From positions 1 through 21,777 of IMG/VR virus record IMGVR_UViG_3300041964_000010: a DNA stretch of 21,777 nucleotides; one strand, written 5' to 3'. Position numbers and translations under genes: made by a program. Of this stretch, positions 3,535 to 15,937 are shown in pieces (the first letter of the stretch is position 1; each line of letters begins with the position of its first letter). Origin of the DNA: a virus. The notes beneath the pieces are model-generated. The model was given only the letters and a program-made list of their open reading frames with translations, was not told the DNA's origin and searched no databases.

Positions 3535-4798
3535 GCTGGCTTAAGCGCCTGTTTCTCCCTCGACGGCACTAAGGACATCGAGCCTTGGCGCGGGGGGCAG
3601 GCCTCAACTGAGAACGTGGACAACTTCGTCACCAATCAGGTGACCGTGGCGGATTACCGCGACGTCCGAGCAGCGTCAGGGTGGGGGCGCTGTCGGGCCT
3701 GTCCGCCACTGGGCCTGCGTCCAGCTGATCGCGGGCACGATCGCGTCGCTTCCCGTGATGGTCTACCGCACGGACGACAAGGGCGTGCGAACGGTCGCGA
3801 GAGATCACCCGCTCTATTTTGTGCTGCACGACAGCCCCAACTTCGATCTTCACCGCCATGGACTTCTGGGAGGTCATGGCCGCGAGCCTTGAGCTTCAGG
3901 GCAACGCCTACGCGCTAATGGAGCGGCGCGACTCTGGGGCGCTGATGGCGCTGCATCCGATCCGCCCGGACTTGGTGAAGGCCAAGCGGCGAGGCGACGG
4001 CGGAATTGAGTACGAGTGGACGGACGGTGGGCGACGTGTGGTCAAGGCCGGCGAGCAGGTTCTGCATATCCGTGGCCCCTTCGGGGACGCGCTGTCGGGG
4101 GCCTCAACGCTCTCGGCGTGCCGGGGTGTGTTTGAGGACGCGTTGGCGGCTGAGAGTGCAGCGGGGTCGATGTTCGCCAACGGGGTCAACCCAAGCGGCG
4201 TGTTGTCCACCAAGCCTGAGGTGCGGCTCACCAAGGAGCAGCGCGACGAGCTCGAGCGCCACCTGGCGGAGAAGTATCAGGGCTCGATCCGGCAGGGCCG
4301 TCCGATGCTCTTGGACAACGGCCTGACTTGGACGCAGCTTTCCATCAACCCGCACGACGCTGAGATGCTTGAGAGCCGCAAGTTCAGCGGCGAGCAGATC
4401 TGTCGGCTCTTCGGTGTCCCGCCGGCCATGGTCGGGTTCGGCGACAAGGCCTCCAACTGGGGCACCGGCAAGGAGTCGACGTCCTTGGCTTCCAGAAGTT
4501 CACGCTCCGAAAGCGCTTGAAGCGCATCGAGCAGGCGGTGCTCAAGCAGCTCGTGCCGCTGGCTGAGCGTCGCGCCCAAGGCCTGAGCGTCGAATTCAAC
4601 GTCGAAGGCCTGCTGCGGGGCGACAGCGCTGCTCGGGCGGCCTTCTACCAGTCCGGCCTGCAGAACGGCTGGACCACCATCAACGAGGTCCGCGCGCACG
4701 AGAACCTGCCCCCGGTCCCGGGCGGCGATGTTCCGCGGATGCAGATGCAGAACGTCCCAATCAATGCGCCGCCGGCCGGCCAGGAGGAAGCGGCATGA
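3531..4798 (+). CDS. portal protein, HK97 family (several frameshifts in the read)
   Basis: The dodecameric ring through which DNA enters and leaves the capsid. The start is the TTG at 3531, overlapping the terL stop (SWLKRLFL). The protein is then spread over three frames: DNFVTNQVTVADYRDV; WACVQLIAGTIASLPVMVYR; MDFWEVMAASLELQGNAY through FGVPPAMVGFGDKASNWG; and VLGFQKFTLRKRLKRIE to the end. Single-base corrections near 3557, 3681, 3709, 3849 and 4475 rebuild one ~422-residue portal with the family's usual order. No in-frame stop remains after correction, which favours sequencing indels over decay. It ends in ATGA with the protease gene. Confidence 0.88.
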
Positions 4799-5421
4799 AC
4801 ACTCTCGACTTCCAGCTTGATGTCAAAGCCGTTGACGATGACGGGCTGATTGAAGGCGTCGCGGCTGGCTATGGTGACGTAGATCACGGCGACGACCTCA
4901 TCATCCCGGGTGCCGCTGCGAAATCTCTCGCCGGACGTGCGCGCGTCCCCATGCTGCTGTTCCACGATCAGAAGCGTCCGGTGGGCGTCTGGAGCAGCCT
5001 CACGGAGACGGGCGACGGGCTGCTCGCAAAAGGCCGGTTCGCGATGTCCACCAGCGCCGGGAAGGAGGCTCACGCCCTCACCCGCGATGGGGCGCTGTCC
5101 GGCCTGTCGATCGGCTATCGCACGCTCAAGCACCGGATGCAGGGCAAGGTGCGTGAGCTTCAAGAGATTGCCGTGCACGAGATTTCTCTGGTGGCGATCC
5201 CAATGCACCAGCGGGCGCAGATCACCGCCGTAAAAAGCATTCTGGAGGCCGGTGAACTGCCGACCATCCGTGAGTTTGAGGAGTTCCTGCGGGATGCAGG
5301 TGGCTTCTCGAAGAGCCTAGCCGCAGCGATTGCTGGCAAGGCGACGCCGCATCTTCGGGGGGAGCCCGAGGCGAAGGCGAACGATGCAGTCGAGTTCCTG
5401 CGTGCTCTGCAGGCCGGCTGA
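4795..5421 (+). CDS. HK97-family prohead protease
   Basis: A 208-residue intact serine protease that trims the capsid precursor and probably itself during head maturation. The ATG overlaps the portal TGA. Family marks are GVAAGYGDVDHGDDLI near residues 21-36, the catalytic histidine in MLLFHDQ (H57) and the serine region GALSGLSIGYR (S102/S105). The EISLVAIPM strand follows. The C-terminal ~50 residues (helical, with REFEEFLRDAGGFSKS) are the usual linker or scaffold-like tail. Its place between portal and capsid genes is the standard HK97 order. Confidence 0.95.
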   Translation: MNTLDFQLDVKAVDDDGLIEGVAAGYGDVDHGDDLIIPGAAAKSLAGRARVPMLLFHDQKRPVGVWSSLTETGDGLLAKGRFAMSTSAGKEAHALTRDGALSGLSIGYRTLKHRMQGKVRELQEIAVHEISLVAIPMHQRAQITAVKSILEAGELPTIREFEEFLRDAGGFSKSLAAAIAGKATPHLRGEPEAKANDAVEFLRALQAG

Positions 5422-5455
5422 CCCTTCACCCTCCCTTCTTCCAAGGACGACGAAC

Positions 5456-6654
5456 ATGACGACCGACACCAAGTCGGCCGCCGAGCTGGCGGCTGAGATC
5501 AAGAGCGACTTCGAAACCAAACACGACAGGGTCAAGGAGATCGCCGAGAAGGCCCTCGCCGAGGCCCAAGCCGGCACGCCCCTCGCCACCACGGCGAAGG
5601 AGCTGGCCGATCAAGCCATCACCGGCATGGACGAGGCCAAGTCCCGTCTCGATGAGATGGAGCAGAAGATGGCCCGCCGCGGCGTCGACGGCGACGCCCC
5701 CCGTTCCGCGGGCGAGCGCTTCACCGAAGACGAGCAGTTCAAGGCCTTCGCTGGCCAGACCCGTCCCCGCGGTCGCGTGGTGGTCGAGGTCAAGGACATC
5801 ACGTCCCTGACCACGGACGCCGCGGGCTCCGCGGGCGCGCTGATCCCGACCGATCGGCGCGGGATGCAGGTGGAGCTGCCGCAACGTCGTCTGACGGTGC
5901 GCTCGCTCCTGCTGCCCGGGCAGACCGCCTCCAGTTCGATTGAGTACGAGCAGGAGAAGCTGTTCACCAACAACGCCGCGCCGGTGGCGGAAGGGACCCT
6001 CAAGCCGCAGTCCGATCTGCAGTTCGAGGACAAGACCGCCTCCGTGCGGACCATCGCCCACTGGATGCGACCTCGGTCCAGATCCTGGCCGATGCTCCGG
6101 GTCTGCGCTCGATCATCGACCAACGCCTGCGCTACGGCCTGGCGCTGGCCGAAGAAGGCCCAACTGCTCAACGGCAGCGGCTCGGGACAGAACCTGCTGG
6201 GCTGGTGACGGCGGCCACCGCCTACGCTGCGCCCGGTGGCCTCACCGCCACGACGCAGGTGGACATCCTCCGCCTGATGATCCTGCAGGCGGCGCTGGCC
6301 GAGTATCCGCCCAACGGCATCGTGATGAACCCGATCGACTGGGCCTCCATCGAGATGGCGAAGGACACCACGGGCCGGTACATCATCGGCAATCCGCAGG
6401 GGACGATCGCTCCCACCCTGTGGAGCCTGCCGGTGGTGCCGACGCAGGCCATGGGCGTCGACAAGGCCCTCGTGGGCGCCTTCAACCTGGCGGCGCAGAT
6501 CTTCGACCGTCAGGACGCCACGGTGGACGTGTCCACCGAGGACCAGGACAACTTCGTGCGGAACAAGGTCACGATCCGCGCCGAAGAGCGGCTGGCGCTG
6601 GCCATCTACCGTCCTCAGGCCATCGTCTACGGCGACCTCGGCCGCGTGGCCTGA
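5456..6654 (+). CDS. HK97-fold major capsid protein (three frameshifts in the read)
   Basis: The main shell protein. The ATG at 5456 has AAGGA at 5443-5447. Residues 1-85 are a charged, helical scaffolding-like delta domain expected to be removed by the adjacent protease. The shell domain begins around SLTTDAAGSAGALIPTD and includes RRLTVRSLLLPG and ALAEYPPNGIVMNPIDW, with ...ERLALAIYRPQAIVYGDL at the end. The reading frame changes near 6066 (one G missing), 6155 (one extra A) and 6200 (one C missing). Correcting these gives a continuous ~400-residue protein containing VQILADAPGLRSIIDQRL and EEAQLLNGSGSGQNLLGLVT. The earlier in-frame start at 5330 overlaps the protease gene and lacks a ribosome site. 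Confidence 0.9.
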
Positions 6655-6721: not shown

Positions 6722-6922
6722 ATGATCAAGGCAATCCTTGTGAAGCCGCTCGACGGCCAGCCCGCAGGCTCTGAGCGCGAGTTCTCGCAGGCAGACTTCG
6801 ACCATCTGACGCGCCTTGGCGCGGTGCGCGAAGCCGGGGCGAAGAGCGCGCCAGAAGTCCTGAACAAGGCTGCACCGGTCCCCGACAACAAAGCGACTAC
6901 CAGACGCGCGAAGGCCGGTTAA
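6722..6922 (+). CDS. small head-module protein, function unknown
   Basis: A 66-residue protein with AAGGA about 6 nt before its ATG. The N-terminal half (IKAILVKPLDG, then FSQADFDHLTRLGAV) resembles the short 'entry into a beta-hairpin plus helix' proteins found next to capsid genes in many siphophages. The C-terminal half is low-complexity and basic (KATTRRAKAG). It is the first gene after the capsid terminator and sits immediately before the head-tail connector. The role is not known; a capsid accessory or a connector helper are possible guesses. Confidence 0.7.
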   Translation: MIKAILVKPLDGQPAGSEREFSQADFDHLTRLGAVREAGAKSAPEVLNKAAPVPDNKATTRRAKAG

Positions 6923-6924
6923 GC

Positions 6925-7465
6925 ATGTCGGTCCGCGTCACCATCCCCGGCTCGCCCGCCGTCACCTGGGCTGAAGCTGACGCGCACCTCGTGCTGGATG
7001 GTGACACTTCTCAGCAGCCTTATGTCGAGGGTCTGATCGCGGCGGCGCAAAGCCACATCGAGAAGACCCTCGACCTTTCCATCACCACGACCACGCTGGA
7101 GGCGACGTCGGCGGGCGAGACGAGGTGGATTGGCTCTTACGGGCTACCGCGCGGGCCGGTGCGCTCGATCATAGAGGTCCGCGCAGGTTCTCCTTCAGCT
7201 ATCGTTTCGCCTGACCTCTACGCGCTCTCGGTGAGCACAGACTCCGCCTTGAAGCAGGCACGGTGCTGACCGGCGAACTGGTCGTGACATACACGGCCGG
7301 CGACGCTCCCGCAGATGTGCCCGCGCCTATCAAGCACGCGATCCTGCTGCTGGTCGGCCATTGGTTCGCCAATCGAGAGGCGGTCGTGGTCGGCGGGGAG
7401 ACCGCTCGCCAATACCGTTCGCCGCTGAGGCGCTGCTGGCGCCCTACCAAACGTGGAGAGTCTGA
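6925..7465 (+). CDS. head-tail connector protein, gp6-like (two frameshifts in the read)
   Basis: The adaptor that binds under the portal. The first frame gives TWAEADAHLVLDGD, then AAQSHIEKTLDLSI, typical of gp6/YqbG-like connectors. It continues through GPVRSIIEVRAG. The middle part (VLTGELVVTYTAGDAPADVPAPIKHAILLLVGHWF) is in a second frame and the end (PFAAEALLAPYQTWRV) in a third. One missing C near 7244 and one missing T near 7407 restore a single ~180-residue protein. The true stop is TGA at 7463-7465, which overlaps the next ATG. Confidence 0.85.
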
Positions 7466-7629
7466 TGAAGACAGTGACGTTCGCCCACGACTTCGACCTG
7501 GTGCTCGAGCGCGATGAGGGCGGTCGGCCGACTAAGGTCGCCGCCTACTACGCGGGTCAGACCTACGAGAAGGTCCCCGCTGAGGTGGCCAAGGCCGCCG
7601 AGGAAGCGAAGGCTGTGAAGCCCGACTGA
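7465..7629 (+). CDS. small connector-region protein, function unknown
   Basis: A 54-residue protein (starts MKTVTFAHDFD) coupled by TGATG overlaps to both neighbours. It has a short beta-rich N-terminus, a YYAGQTY segment and an alanine/lysine-rich helix (VAKAAEEAKA). Small proteins of this kind lie between the connector and closure genes of other siphophages, with no assigned role that I know of. The tight spacing supports it as real despite its length. Confidence 0.65.
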   Translation: MKTVTFAHDFDLVLERDEGGRPTKVAAYYAGQTYEKVPAEVAKAAEEAKAVKPD

Positions 7630-8727: not shown

Positions 8728-9073
8728 CGGCGTTGAACTCCCGACCGCACTGGCGGGGCTTACCCGGATCAATGCTCAAACCGGCACGACCTACACGCTG
8801 CAGCTCAGCGACCGGGACAAGGACGTGGTGCTGACGAATGCCGCGGCGATCACCCTGGGCCTGCCGAATAGCCTCCCGGAAGGTTGGGGGTGCGGGATCA
8901 TCCAGGGCGGAGCGGGGCAGGTGACGCTTAACCCAGCACCTGGGGCGACGCTCGGGAACTACGACAACCACACCAAGCTGGCCGGGCTGAACGCGACTGC
9001 CGGCCTCGTGGTCAGGAGCAATGTCGGCGGCGCGTCGGCGGCTTACGTACTCTCCGGAACGACCTCCGCATGA
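8705..9073 (+). CDS. small beta-rich virion protein (fibre/decoration-like domain)
   Basis: A 122-residue protein. The start is the ATG at 8705, preceded by GGAG (8694-8697) and overlapping the end of the repeat protein. The sequence has TGTTYTLQLSDRDKDVVLTNAAAITLGLP, then IIQGGAGQVTLNPAPG and SAAYVLSG. This is the pattern of a beta-sandwich module seen in phage fibre and stalk proteins (TYTL...LTN..ITVTLP...I.QAGAGQVT). It is probably displayed on the virion, but whether on head or tail cannot be told. Its stop overlaps the ATG of the large SGNH protein, suggesting coupled production of the two. Confidence 0.7.
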   Translation: MPTIDVNDGVELPTALAGLTRINAQTGTTYTLQLSDRDKDVVLTNAAAITLGLPNSLPEGWGCGIIQGGAGQVTLNPAPGATLGNYDNHTKLAGLNATAGLVVRSNVGGASAAYVLSGTTSA

Positions 9074-11246
9074 TGCGGCCTTCTCGCCGGGCCGCTCGGG
9101 CGCGCCGATCCGGCGCATTCGGCAACCCCGCGCTGCTGTCACCTCAATTCCCCAACCTTCGGTCCGCTTATGCTGCGGGGCGCGCCTTAATCGGAATGAT
9201 CGGCGACAGCACCACCACGGGTTGGGGGAGCGGCACGACCGACGTGATCAGCCGGAACACCACCGGCGCCCATGTCTTGGCTCCCCCTGCGGTCGCGCGG
9301 GCCAGCCTGAACACCGGCCAGCTCAAGGTCTATGATGCCGTACTCACGCCCAACAACCGCGTAGCGCTCACCGGGGCCAGTTACGATCAAAAGCCGATCT
9401 GGGTCGGCTACGACTCCCGACTGACGCTGGGCACGAGCTGGGCGGTTGCGACCGAACAGATGGTGCTGGGGGGCAACCGAGCGCGTAGCGCCGGGACGGA
9501 TGCGCTGACTTTCGCACCTGGCTTTGTCTTCAATCGCATCGAATTGCTCTACGTGATGTCGCCGGGTCTCGGCGACTTCACTGTCGATGTTGGCGGTTCG
9601 GTGCTCCAGACCGTGCAAACGGCGGGGGCGGCCCAGATAGGGAAGGTTGTGGTTATCTCCCCGCTCGGCTCCAGCCCCGTGAATGTGCGGCGGGCCGCTG
9701 GGGGCAACGTGGAGATCCTGAACATCAGAGTCTGGAATACCGCCGAGGCTTCGGTCGCGGTTGCGAACTACGGCTCAGTGGGGGCAACGACTGCAGACCA
9801 TATCGTGGCAACGGACCCCTGGTCGCCGCTGAACATGATCGCTGCGGTTGGCGCTCACCTCTGGACGATCATGCTGGGCGCTAACGACATCTTCAACGGC
9901 GTGGCCGTGAGCACCTACAAGGCCAACCTTCAGACCCTGATCACCGCGTGCAAGGCGAGCGGGGCAGACGTGCTGCTGATCTCCCCAACGCCGGCAAGCG
10001 GCAGCTACAACATACCGGGGACCTACGTGACCGCCCTCTCCGAGTTGGTCACCGAGAACAGCTTGCCGCCGCTGTTGGATATCAACGCGCTGTTTGGCAG
10101 CTATGCAGCTTCAGCTGCGGACTACTTCGATAGCGTCCATCTCAAGGCCTCAGGTTCCTCGCGGGTCGGACAAGCTGTCGCCCAGCGCGTTGCGGCCGAT
10201 GCCGTTGCGCCCTCGATCACTTCCGCGGCGGTTATCGACGCTGTTGAGGGGAGCCCAAAAAACCACACCCTTACCGCCAACGAGATCGTCACCTGGTCCA
10301 AGACGGGCGGCGCGGATGCGGGCCTGTTCACCCTTGCCGGGTCTACACTTTCGCTGCCGTCGCAGACCTACGCGCCGGGGGGAGACAACGACCGGGTGGT
10401 CCAAGTGACGGCCACGGACAGCGCAGGAAACGCCACCTCCCAGACGATCACGTTCAACATCCAGCAGGTCACTGCCCTATGGACGCCCGCTGCGCTTGGA
10501 ACCGCCGATGTGGCGTGGTTCAGAGCCAGCGACCAAGCAACCGTCACCGAGAGCGGCGGCAATGTTTCGGCCGTGGCGAACAAGGGTGCTTACGGAGGGT
10601 CGCTTCAGCAGGCGACAGGCACCGCCCCAGCCGTCTTACATCGTCAACGCGCTGGGGAGCAGAAACGCCGTCCGTGTGGTGAGCGGCAAGAGCCTGGTGC
10701 AGGCCAGCATGGCTCACCCGGCGGCGCCCATCTACTTCATGGCCGTCGTCAAACCGTCGTCAGGGAACGCCAGCGGGGACATTTTCTGGACCCCCGGCTC
10801 ATGGGCGGCGACCTCCGGCTACATCGCCGGGGTCGCCAACGCCAACAAGCCGATTGCAGGCCATTGGCGACTTCAACCTGGCCGGTTCTGGCTTCGGCTT
10901 CGGCGGGCAGACGTTTACCGACCCCTACTACTACGCAGCCACCCCAGGCTACGGGACGGACAACGCGCTGCATGTGATTTCGGGCGTGATCGAGAATGGT
11001 CGGGTCGAGTTCCGCCAGGATGGCGCGGTCAAGGCGATGCGCTCAAGCTCGGCACTGAAAAACCCCGTTGCGGTCACATCAACCCTCCAGTTGCTGTCGA
11101 CCATCGGCGACAATTTCGAGATCTTCTTCAGCCGGAAGGTGATCAGCAACGACGACATGAGGCGGCTGGAAGGCTATGCCGCCTGGGATTACGGGATCAC
11201 CTTGGCGGTCGATCACCCTTACTTCAGCGCTGCGCCTACGCTCTGA
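9070..11246 (+). CDS. SGNH hydrolase / cadherin-like / LamG-like virion protein (two frameshifts)
   Basis: A ~725-residue multi-domain protein. Residues 40-375 are an SGNH/GDSL hydrolase: block I GDST (Ser47), block III LGAND (N272) and block V DSVH (D354, H357). Such enzymes remove ester groups, often acetyl, from cell-surface sugars. About 385-468 is a cadherin/Ig-like domain (GLFTLAGSTLSLP, VVQVTATDSAGN). The rest has the layout of a concanavalin/LamG-like binding module (ALGTADVAWFRASD, FFSRKVISNDDMRRLEGYAAWDYG). One extra base near 10630 and one near 10856 break the frame. The likely role is to modify and bind the host surface (inference). It lies far from the tip/fibre gene at 17.6 kb, an unusual place. 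Confidence 0.82.
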
Positions 11247-11387
11247 TCACCAATCACCGCTGATGCGATCTGGGTCCTCTGGCGGCGGGCCAAAGCAGGA
11301 ATTAAGCGCCCACAGAACCCCAGCCGCGAGCCCCAAGAGCGCGCCACCGCCGAGGATATTGCGAGCGTACTCAGTCAACCATTCCAT
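11247..11387 (-). CDS. small membrane protein on the minus strand
   Basis: A 46-residue ORF, the only plausible minus-strand gene. It has one predicted membrane helix (NILGGGALLGLAAGVLWAL, residues 10-28), an N-terminal acidic/aromatic segment and a C-terminal proline/acidic tail after a cysteine (SCFGPPPEDPD). Its stop codon abuts the stop of the SGNH gene, so the two converge with no gap. The DNA here is less GC-rich than the surroundings. The ribosome site is weak, and I cannot rule out chance. It could be a superinfection-exclusion or lysis accessory protein (guess). Confidence 0.4.
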   Translation of the reverse strand: MEWLTEYARNILGGGALLGLAAGVLWALNSCFGPPPEDPDRISGDW

Positions 11388-13077: not shown

Positions 13078-13506
13078 ATGCCTACCGCCGCCACCATCGG
13101 CCACGGCTCCAGCTTCGCCCTTGGCGACGGGGCTCAGCCCGAAGTCTTCACCACCATTGCGGAGGTCTACGACATCACGCCGCCGAGCGAGACGTCGGAC
13201 GTGATCGACGCCACGCACATGTCGAGCCCGGGCAACATGCGCGAGTTCATCATGGGCCTCACCGATCCAGGCGAGGCCTCGTTCGAGATGAACTTTATTC
13301 CCGGCTCGGCCAGCGAAACGGCGATCCTGGCCTGGCGCGCTGGGCGGGTCTCTAAGAACTGCCGCATCACCTTCCCGAACGGCTGGCGCTGGACCTTCCT
13401 GGCGCTCTGCACGGGCTACGAGCCTGCGCTGCCCGCCGACGACAAGATGACGGCCACTGTGACCGCCAAGGTGACCGGCACTGTCACGCGGGTCGCGGGC
13501 TCCTGA
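13078..13506 (+). CDS. phage tail tube protein
   Basis: A 142-residue protein of the lambda V / siphovirus tail tube class: TIAEVYDITPPSETSDVIDATHMSS, then MREFIMGLTDPGEASFEMNF and ILAWRAGRV, ending in TATVTAKVTGTVTRVAG. It forms stacked hexameric rings around the tape measure. The gene position after DUF3168 and before the tail chaperone pair is standard. No C-terminal Ig-like domain is present, so this is the minimal form. Confidence 0.93.
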   Translation: MPTAATIGHGSSFALGDGAQPEVFTTIAEVYDITPPSETSDVIDATHMSSPGNMREFIMGLTDPGEASFEMNFIPGSASETAILAWRAGRVSKNCRITFPNGWRWTFLALCTGYEPALPADDKMTATVTAKVTGTVTRVAGS

Positions 13507-13859
13507 TGCCGAGCAATCCGATCAAGGGTGAGGTCTCGTTTGAGGCCGGTGATCAGAAGTACACGCTGGTGCTCGGCAGCTACGCCCTGGCGGCCCTGGA
13601 GCGCCGTCAGGGTATGCCTGCCCAGAAGTTCTTCGACAGGCCCGCCGACGCTTTCGGCTTCGATGATATGCTGGGGATCTTCCACAGCGGCCTGTTGCAG
13701 CACCACGACCTCAGTGAGCGGGAAGCAGCGGTCATCATCGATCAGGTGGGCGCCCTTCGCACCGGCGAGCTGATCGCGGAAGCCGTCTCTCTCGCGTTCC
13801 CGGAGGCAGCGAACGCCACCAAGGGCCCTCAGAAGCGGGCGAGGGCTGGGACTGGCTAG
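13506..13859 (+). CDS. tail assembly chaperone, upstream frame (gpG-like; GTA gp10 type)
   Basis: A 117-residue protein starting in a TGATG overlap with the tube gene. It shows GEVSFEAGDQKYTLVLGSYALAALERRQGM and DDMLGIFHSGLLQHHDL, the pattern of the gene transfer agent gp10-like tail assembly chaperones. In lambda and many siphophages two chaperones are made from this locus: a short one, and a fusion by programmed -1 frameshifting. Both coat the tape measure before tube assembly. Its last 10 codons overlap a second open frame (-1) that lacks its own start, consistent with this mechanism. Confidence 0.88.
   Translation: MPSNPIKGEVSFEAGDQKYTLVLGSYALAALERRQGMPAQKFFDRPADAFGFDDMLGIFHSGLLQHHDLSEREAAVIIDQVGALRTGELIAEAVSLAFPEAANATKGPQKRARAGTG
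13823..13829 (+). promoter_or_regulatory. candidate -1 ribosomal frameshift site (GGGCCCT)
   Basis: The heptamer G GGC CCT, in phase with the upstream chaperone, fits the X XXY YYZ slippery rule. Slipping one base back continues directly into the -1 frame, which is open to 14167. A purine-rich GGAGG (13802-13806) lies upstream and could act as an internal stimulator, though it is farther away than in dnaX. Confidence 0.6.
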
Positions 13860-14167
13860 AGCTTTACGGCCTGTGGGTCGGTGAGCTTGGTCTGCAGCCC
13901 GAAGACTTCTGGCGACAGACGCCCCGGCTTCTGGCGGCCGTGGTCCAGGGTTGCGCCCGCGCCGCTGATCACGCCCACCGCGGGCGCGCATGGCTGGCGT
14001 GGCACACCGCGCGCCTGGGCCAAGTCAACCCCAAGAAGTTCCCCAAGCTCGAAGACCTGACCGGTAGGCGCAAGCGCAGGCCGAAGAAGAACCAACCCCG
14101 CCCCTGGCAGGAGCTGATGGCCACCGCCCAGGCGTGGGCGGCTGCCACCGCAATCCACGAACCGTAG
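13829..14167 (+). CDS. tail assembly chaperone, -1 frame extension (gpT-like)
   Basis: The -1 frame after the slippery site is open for about 112 codons: WDWLELYGLWVGELGLQPEDFWRQTPRLL, then HRGRAWLAWHTARLGQVNPKKFPKLEDLTG. This matches the small alphaproteobacterial 'phage tail assembly chaperone' domain (WxLTPxEFWxxTPxEL). There is no ATG, GTG or TTG before this domain's core. The first GTG (13940) would remove half of it. The frameshift product would be about 220 residues. It overlaps the upstream gene and ends just before the tape measure, exactly the lambda G-GT arrangement. A sequencing deletion is the alternative. Confidence 0.75.
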   Translation, partial: SEAGEGWDWLELYGLWVGELGLQPEDFWRQTPRLLAAVVQGCARAADHAHRGRAWLAWHTARLGQVNPKKFPKLEDLTGRRKRRPKKNQPRPWQELMATAQAWAAATAIHEP

Positions 14168-14185: not shown

Positions 14186-15937
14186 GTGATCGGCGCCCTG
14201 CGCGTCATCCTCGGCGCCGATACCGCGCAGTTCGAGACCGGCATGAAGCGCGCCCAGGCCACGATGAGCGGCGTTGGCCAGAAAATGCAGGGCATCGGGG
14301 CGGCGATGTCCCTCGGCATCACGGCTCCCGTGACGCTGATTGGCAAGGAGATGCTGAGCGCCGCCGTGAACGCGGAGGAGATGCAGTCCGCGTTCAACGT
14401 CAGCTTCGGCTCGATGTCTAAGAGCACCGAAGACTGGGCGCGTAAGACCGGCGACGCACTCGGCCGCTCAACGCAAGAGCTCCAGCAAGCCGCTCTGACC
14501 ATGAACGGCCTCTTCAAGGCCGGCGGACCTGCCACGGCTCAGACTGCAGAGCTGTCCAAAGAGTTCGCGGTGCTGGCTCAGGACCTCTCCAGCTTCCACA
14601 ACATCAAGCCCGAAGAGGCGCTGGATCGTCTCCGCGCCGGTCTCAGCGGTGAAGCCGAGCCGCTGCGGAAGTTCAACGTCTACCTGACCGAGGCCGCCGT
14701 GAAGGCTGAGGCCATGAAGCTGGGTCTGATCGGCGCGAACGGAGAGCTGGCCGAGAGCGCGAAGATCCAGGCTCGTGCGTCCCTGATCATGAAGGGCACG
14801 ACGGAAGCGCAGGGTGACGTGGCCCGCACATCCGAAAGTCTCGCCAACAAGCAGCGCGCCCTGTCGGCCCAGTGGCAGGAGTTGTCGGTCACGGTCGGCA
14901 CCCTGCTGATCCCAGCCATCACGCCGCTGGTCTCTGTCCTCACGGACGTGGCGAAGTGGTTCGGCTCGCTCTCGCCGCAGATGCAGACGGCGATTGGCGT
15001 CATGGCTGGTCTTGCGGCCGCGGTGGGACCGGTCGTGGGTGTGATGGGCACGCTGATGACCGCAATGACGGCCCTGAAGCCGGTGATCATGGCCGTGCGC
15101 GTAGCCTTCATGCTGCTGCTGGGTCCCACCAACCCGCTCGGCCTGATCATCACCGCCGTGACCGCGGTTATCGCGGTTTGGGTTCTCTTCGGCGACGATA
15201 TCAAGCGCATCGCTGGGGTGGTCGTGGACTACGTCCGGCGGATGTACGAGGGCATCAAGACCTGGTTGCTCGACAAGTTCTCCGCGATTGTCGACGGCGT
15301 TCGCAAGAAGGTGGAGGCCGTGAAGGGCTTCTTCGCCGGCATGTACGACGCCGTCGTCGGCAACTCCTACGTGCCCGACATGGTCCGCCAAGTCGGCGAG
15401 TGGATGCAGAAGCTCGACGGCGCAATGGTCGATCCCGCCCGTGCGGCCAACGACAACGTCGCCAAGTCGTTTGCGGGCATGTCCGATAGCGTGATCAGTA
15501 GCCTCGGATCTGTGGCCAAGGCGCTGGCAAGCGGTGACTGGAAAGGCGCCCTCCAGGGCGCGCTCGGGATGGCCGGCCGGGGCAACGGCAAGGTCGCGGG
15601 GTGGGCGAACGCGGCTTCCGAGGTCCTCAAGATGCTGCCGGGCTTCGCCAACGGGGGCTCGTTCACGGTCGGCGGCTCAAGCGGCATCGACAAGAACATC
15701 GTTGCCATCCGTGCCACACGCGGTGAGCGGGTGGATGTCACCCCGGCCAATCAGGCTCGAGCCGGCGGGAGCGACGGCGTGCTGGTGGTCCGCGTGGATA
15801 AGTCGGATCTCTTTGACGTGGCCGTGCAGCGCGCAGCGGCTCCCATGGCCGCTCAGGCCGCTGTGGCGGGGGCAAGGGGCGGAGCCGCCCTCGGCCGGCA
15901 GCAGATGGGCCGACAGGCCCGGCAGACGTTCCGATGA
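14186..15937 (+). CDS. tape measure protein
   Basis: A 583-residue protein that sets tail length and is ejected ahead of the DNA. The N-terminus (IGALRVILGADTAQFETGMKRAQ) is typical. There is a long helical region, a lambda-like segment WQELSVTVGTLLIPAITPLVSVL, and two hydrophobic stretches (AIGVMAGLAAAVGPVVGVMG and LGLIITAVTAVIAVWVLF). The C-terminus has FANGGSFTVGGSSGIDKNIV and GERVDVTP, common in such proteins. At about 0.15 nm per residue, a tail near 85-90 nm is expected (inference). A strong AGGAGG at 14166-14171 is 14 nt from the GTG at 14186 but 5 nt from an in-frame ATT at 14177, so ATT (or a miscalled ATG) may be the true start. Confidence 0.93.
   Translation: MIGALRVILGADTAQFETGMKRAQATMSGVGQKMQGIGAAMSLGITAPVTLIGKEMLSAAVNAEEMQSAFNVSFGSMSKSTEDWARKTGDALGRSTQELQQAALTMNGLFKAGGPATAQTAELSKEFAVLAQDLSSFHNIKPEEALDRLRAGLSGEAEPLRKFNVYLTEAAVKAEAMKLGLIGANGELAESAKIQARASLIMKGTTEAQGDVARTSESLANKQRALSAQWQELSVTVGTLLIPAITPLVSVLTDVAKWFGSLSPQMQTAIGVMAGLAAAVGPVVGVMGTLMTAMTALKPVIMAVRVAFMLLLGPTNPLGLIITAVTAVIAVWVLFGDDIKRIAGVVVDYVRRMYEGIKTWLLDKFSAIVDGVRKKVEAVKGFFAGMYDAVVGNSYVPDMVRQVGEWMQKLDGAMVDPARAANDNVAKSFAGMSDSVISSLGSVAKALASGDWKGALQGALGMAGRGNGKVAGWANAASEVLKMLPGFANGGSFTVGGSSGIDKNIVAIRATRGERVDVTPANQARAGGSDGVLVVRVDKSDLFDVAVQRAAAPMAAQAAVAGARGGAALGRQQMGRQARQTFR

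Follow-up and report, generated by a model that had tools for sequence, protein, structure and literature searches.

We find that the tail-assembly chaperone gene of a siphophage is very probably (about 0.9, judged from sequence) decoded through a programmed -1 ribosomal frameshift of the G/GT type. The window, that is, the whole stretch of DNA analysed, is an IMG/VR viral contig of 21,777 bases in which a tail tube gene, a 117-aa open reading frame, an open -1 frame, and a tape measure gene follow one another. Our reading relies on the combination of this gene order with the frames, the missing start codon, the slip motif, and a deep conservation among relatives. In the proposed mechanism, most ribosomes would stop at TAG 13857 and release the 117-aa short protein, while a few, holding GGC in the P site and CCT in the A site, would slip one base back to GGG CCC and read on in the -1 frame, giving rise to a 220-aa fusion that includes the TAC_6 extension. 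If the pair works as in lambda, the tape measure protein would be coated by the short form, and the scarce fusion would recruit tail tube subunits; we infer the slip, its rate, and these chaperone roles. The locus comprises the following features:

13078..13506, + strand: tail tube protein gene of the lambda type (Pfam Phage_TTP_12, E 2.5e-24; phrog_158 major tail protein, E 3e-20)
13506..13859, + strand: short chaperone gene, gpG-like, of the TAC_11/GTA-gp10 family (PF11836, phrog_2115), 117 aa, stop TAG at 13857
13718..14167, + strand: open -1 frame without a usable start, bounded by TGA at 13715 and by the stop TAG at 14165-14167
13802..13806, + strand: Shine-Dalgarno-like GGAGG, 16 nt upstream of the heptamer, a weak candidate stimulator
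13823..13829, + strand: putative slip heptamer G_GGC_CCT (0-frame AAG GGC CCT; -1 frame GGG CCC TCA)
13826..13829, + strand: C_CCT tetramer, the element common to most of the family (55/75 groups)
13829..14167, + strand: T-like extension with a Phage_TAC_6 domain (PF09550), predicted to be read after the -1 shift and to complete the 220-aa fusion
13830..13930, + strand: possible downstream RNA fold, weak (101 nt, z -2.0)
14186..15937, + strand: tape measure protein gene with a GTG start (phrog_1535 and other tape measure families)

The identity of the pair is supported both by its neighbors and by its protein families. The two chaperone frames sit between a gene with Phage_TTP_12 upstream and one matching tape measure PHROGs downstream, and the TGA of the tail tube gene overlaps the ATG of the 117-aa gene (13506). 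The 117-aa protein matches PF11836 with 24.7 bits (E 2.5e-5), the gathering score of 27.8 not being reached, and the phrog_2115 tail protein with E 5.7e-10; 48 of 60 relatives match PF11836 (E <= 0.01). The -1 product scores 27.4 bits against Phage_TAC_6 (PF09550), exceeding the gathering score of 23.4. The original prediction of a G/GT-type chaperone pair, with a downstream frame lying exactly -1 and lacking a start, is thus borne out in the window: the first ATG, GTG, or TTG of the -1 frame is GTG 13940, deep within the conserved TAC_6 domain, and none of the earlier starts found where the two are separate genes (GTA type) is present. Rfam families and tRNA genes were sought in the window and none was found. 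AlphaFold models of the short protein (pLDDT 88.8) and of the extension (pLDDT 87.1) agree with this assignment. The former folds as a beta hairpin followed by helices, and several of its best structural matches among viral proteins bear the name tail assembly chaperone; A0A0K1LMC7, a viral model of 247 aa, matches both halves, as a fused product would. In the latter, some ten residues separate the slip from the first helix, whose start is residue 11 of the -1 product; this would leave no room for a later start. PDB searches by sequence and by fold with the short protein, and by sequence with the extension, gave no match.

The heptamer G_GGC_CCT does fit the X_XXY_YYZ rule, as had been claimed, and is the sole in-frame heptamer of this form in the window overlap; re-pairing of two tRNAs is possible, from GGC to GGG and from CCT to CCC. 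The fusion, anticipated at ~220 residues, computes to 108 + 112 = 220 aa and 24.4 kDa, with a predicted junction peptide spanning ATKGPSEAGEGWDW. Nonetheless, in the window alone the heptamer is weak proof of frameshifting, given that shuffling the 40 junction codons yields one by chance in 14.6% of draws (P about 0.15). The contig also seems, from its reading frames, rich in indels. The portal gene (3644-4795) runs in three stretches of alternating frames, covering Pfam portal profile positions 4-49, 39-250, and 255-321, with indel-like breaks near 3.85 and 4.5 kb; the major capsid gene (5330-6651) occupies two frames within one Pfam capsid domain (2-81, 83-279), the first of which is briefly taken up again near 6.15 kb. 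Elsewhere, a GDSL-lipase-like tail or fibre protein (9070-11263) can plausibly be followed further in two other frames, from about 10.56 and 10.85 kb onward, and a head-completion-like protein (6901-7514) shows an apparent frame change near 7.25 kb. Since the portal and capsid genes show such breaks, a sequencing indel at the chaperone junction was a live possibility; this, along with the chance level of the heptamer, weakens the evidence from the window and makes relatives decisive.

Single-protein scans of viral and genome contigs found no close relatives, and a plasmid search gave one weak match. Small profiles (3-4 sequences) recovered 27, 15, and 78 loci from viruses and 11 from bacteria, besides phage records, for a comparison set of 130 loci with both genes (75 groups at 80% identity). 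The downstream gene lies in the -1 frame in 130 of 130 loci, some of which come from cultured bacteria and phages. A start is mostly missing too: the 120 nt ahead of the TAC_6 domain hold no ATG, GTG, or TTG in 71 of 75 groups, and in 60 the whole open -1 frame lacks one; in four phage groups a start codon may lie close to the junction. The comparison of relatives at the junction, proposed as a check, favors the prediction, with the -1 relation conserved throughout and C_CCT present in most groups. The same offset is found in six isolated phages, namely Agrobacterium phage Rivra, Caulobacter phage Kronos, and Paracoccus phages Pben1, Shpa, Psul1, and Pthi1, whose public records (L003 for Rivra, L169-L173) annotate the pair as two separate genes, mostly "hypothetical"; except in Pthi1, the start assigned to the second gene lies beyond the end of the first. 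Because the second gene is usually N-terminally shortened in this way, standard gene calling or a heptamer-only search misses the pair.

These relatives weigh heavily on two explanations that dispense with frameshifting. An indel that splits one continuous gene would be in keeping with the portal and major capsid genes of this contig, each split across frames within one Pfam domain; yet the same offset recurs at the same place in every record, cultured bacteria and phages included, so that at the family level the indel explanation is excluded, and for the window we consider it extremely improbable. Under termination-reinitiation, the TAC_6 protein would be produced on its own from a start close to where TAC_11 stops, as happens in translationally coupled genes, and such an arrangement exists. 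The Rhodobacterales GTA gp10 gene and the TAC_6 gene that follows it encode a homologous protein pair in the same order as the phage pair, and we used 29 such loci (taken as GTA type, mostly one per genome) as a control. In 28 of the 29, TAC_6 has a start codon close to the stop of TAC_11, frequently in an NTGA overlap, a geometry that also yields a -1 offset; the possible starts of the four phage groups point the same way. In the window, by contrast, no ATG, GTG, or TTG precedes 13940 (stop context GGCTAGAG), and in many relatives the upstream stop falls too late, well inside the TAC_6 domain (at +64 nt in L002, for instance). Moreover, slip motifs are present in phage loci but absent from GTA-type loci, where C_CCT occurs in 0/29 and a heptamer in 1/29. 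The slip motif thus accompanies the absence of a start, as expected if the motif does the job, and reinitiation appears very unlikely in the window phage. Relatives with a normal start for the second gene, which had been named in advance as grounds for refuting the frameshift, do exist, although only among GTA-type loci, which lack the slip motif, and possibly in the four phage groups. The difference between Rhodobacterales GTA-type loci (L133, L140-L168) and phages may reflect an evolutionary switch between frameshifting and ordinary starts.

If frameshifting is accepted, what remains to be weighed is which part of the site does the work. Printed as codons, the junctions show a recurring NNC CCT C(G/C/A)G AAG. 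C_CCT occurs in 55 of 75 groups against 19.0 +/- 3.5 expected from codon-shuffled junctions (maximum 33 in 2000 draws), at a rate 18-fold that in the rest of the upstream gene, and any canonical heptamer in 43 of 75 groups against 15 expected under codon shuffling. Among C_CCT sites only A_AAC_CCT and G_GGC_CCT are canonical heptamers, the former well above chance (11 vs. 0.35 expected) and the latter less clearly so (5 vs. 1.4). At the 56 C_CCT junctions, the codon preceding CCT is CGC in 24, AAC in 12, GGC in 10, and GAC in 6; because of this drift most C_CCT sites are not canonical heptamers. CGC before CCT cannot re-pair after a -1 shift, and in many CGC_CCT relatives a two-tRNA slip is accordingly not available. 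Assigned by our own choice of the most likely site per group, the site classes are CGC_CCT (23), AAACCCT (12), GGGAAAG (8), GAC_CCT (6), GGGCCCT (5), GGGAAAC (4), and CCCTTTA (3), the remaining classes being single or in pairs, with five groups showing no recognised slip motif. On a protein tree that leaves out the linker before the extension, and in which many branches are weak, the slip class switches at least 37 times while the -1 relation persists. GGGCCCT occupies at least four separate positions on this tree (the window, L002/L041, L031, and L067) rather than one clade; the nearest relative, L058 (51% identical), has C_CGC_CCT, and closely related loci swap AAC, CGC, GGC, and GAC ahead of CCT. 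Judged from these junctions, the element retained in the TAC_11/TAC_6 family is C_CCT and not the heptamer, because the codon before CCT is so often unable to re-pair (CGC in 24). The swaps among related loci, the site of L058, and the frequent CGC would all suit a real frameshift made by one tRNA at C_CCT alone, with the GGG of the heptamer incidental in the window phage. We regard this as possible but somewhat doubtful for the window, as canonical heptamers are over-represented in the family, and since they, A_AAC_CCT above all, exceed chance, re-pairing of two tRNAs probably makes slipping more efficient. We read the site most readily as one of low-level -1 slipping centred on tRNA-Pro, aided in the window phage by the move from GGC to GGG. 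The key step is likely the movement of tRNA-Pro from CCU to CCC; across the family, it seems to help if the preceding tRNA re-pairs as well, but this is dispensable. Were the slip driven by the move to CCC, the hosts would be expected to carry a tRNA-Pro with a GGG anticodon.

Such a site has counterparts in reporter work. A survey in Escherichia coli covered each of the 16 tetramers and 64 heptamers of the kind (Sharma et al. 2014, PMC4066793); in it, the same C_CC.U and G_GG.C_CC.U motifs were able to shift -1 with a strong stimulator. C_CCU is a weak -1 tetramer there, though one of six that reach at least four-fold over background with a strong pseudoknot (PMC4066793). With this stimulator, just three heptamers failed to reach the two-fold limit, A_AA.C_CC.A, G_GG.C_CC.A, and C_CC.G_GG.C; GGGCCCU, not being one of them, does shift in E. 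coli (PMC4066793). That survey used synthetic reporters, whereas here C_CCT occurs naturally and is conserved across a family of phage genes. Candidate stimulators in the family are weak. Upstream of the slip site, Shine-Dalgarno-like words turn up in 26/70 loci for one distance bin and in 24/70 for another, more than the roughly 12 expected; a conserved FPEA peptide (codons CCG GAG GC) can explain this excess. Just downstream of the slip site the mean folding z of the family is -1.01, against -0.12 to -0.62 at other offsets, and in the window z is -2.01 over 101 nt (7/200 shuffles as stable) and -1.18 over 76 nt. With only a mild family excess and unimpressive window values, a specific downstream RNA stimulator was set aside. 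In L083, L095, and L103 the upstream stop directly follows CCT (CCT TAG), and a stop beside the slip site may stimulate slipping.

The original prediction had also called GGGCCCT unusual and tied it to a GC-rich genome. The former holds in comparison with GGGAAAG generally, but not within the family, where C_CCT is the norm and GGGCCCT, found in 5 of 75 groups, is no one-off. The latter finds poor support, as similarly GC-rich relatives use GGGAAAG or CCCTTTA. Mean GC is 0.672 for GGGCCCT loci and 0.608 for AAACCCT loci (P = 0.006; five GGGCCCT groups, uncorrected for ancestry), 0.64 for GGGAAAG/C loci (P = 0.13 vs. GGGCCCT), and 0.663 for CCCTTTA loci; also uncorrected for ancestry, the contrast is significant only against AAACCCT and the non-heptamer C_CCT loci. 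These values amount to a hint of a GC correlation.

Like the lambda G/GT pair (slip site GGGAAAG), the window pair lies between tail tube and tape measure genes, with an overlapping -1 frame, a start-less extension, and predicted short and fusion forms (review PMC5009743). In lambda, the short form binds the tape measure and the extension binds the tail tube, and the products occur in a 30:1 ratio (PMC5009743), so that a weak slip site could suffice. Unlike in lambda, the Pfam families are TAC_11/TAC_6 and the slip codon is proline CCT after GGC; our searches gave no match to the lambda gpG or gpT families. Tail-chaperone frameshifting is already known in other alphaproteobacterial phages (PMC8601537). 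In the Rhodobacter phages RcRhea and RcCronus, which are likewise alphaproteobacterial, the chaperone extension is annotated as a joined CDS, and RcRhea carries G_GGA_AAC just ahead of the stop, a site of the GGGAAAC kind, unlike that of the window; their chaperones gave no convincing match to the TAC_11/TAC_6 profiles. In the open-access literature searched, we found no report of GGGCCCT or TAC_11/TAC_6 frameshifting, nor of a natural conserved C_CCU.

Overall, tail-chaperone frameshifting is a known phage mechanism; C_CCT as the persisting piece is uncommon. We lean slightly towards a model in which a large, mostly alphaproteobacterial phage chaperone family uses a one-tRNA slip at proline C_CCU, the preceding codon being free to drift among CGC, AAC, GGC, and GAC. 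The GGGCCCT of the window would be one station on this drift, and the GTA pair, which has its own TAC_6 start in 28/29 Rhodobacterales loci and no C_CCT slip site, would have swapped frameshifting for an ordinary start, or never had it. Frameshifted tail chaperones fix the proportion between two proteins that govern how the tail is assembled. In the family, the proline slip codon stays constant and the codon ahead of it varies, a natural series that makes the contribution of the P-site tRNA to -1 frameshifting directly testable. The GTA-type loci provide a contrast, the homologous pair being apparently expressed there with no frameshift.
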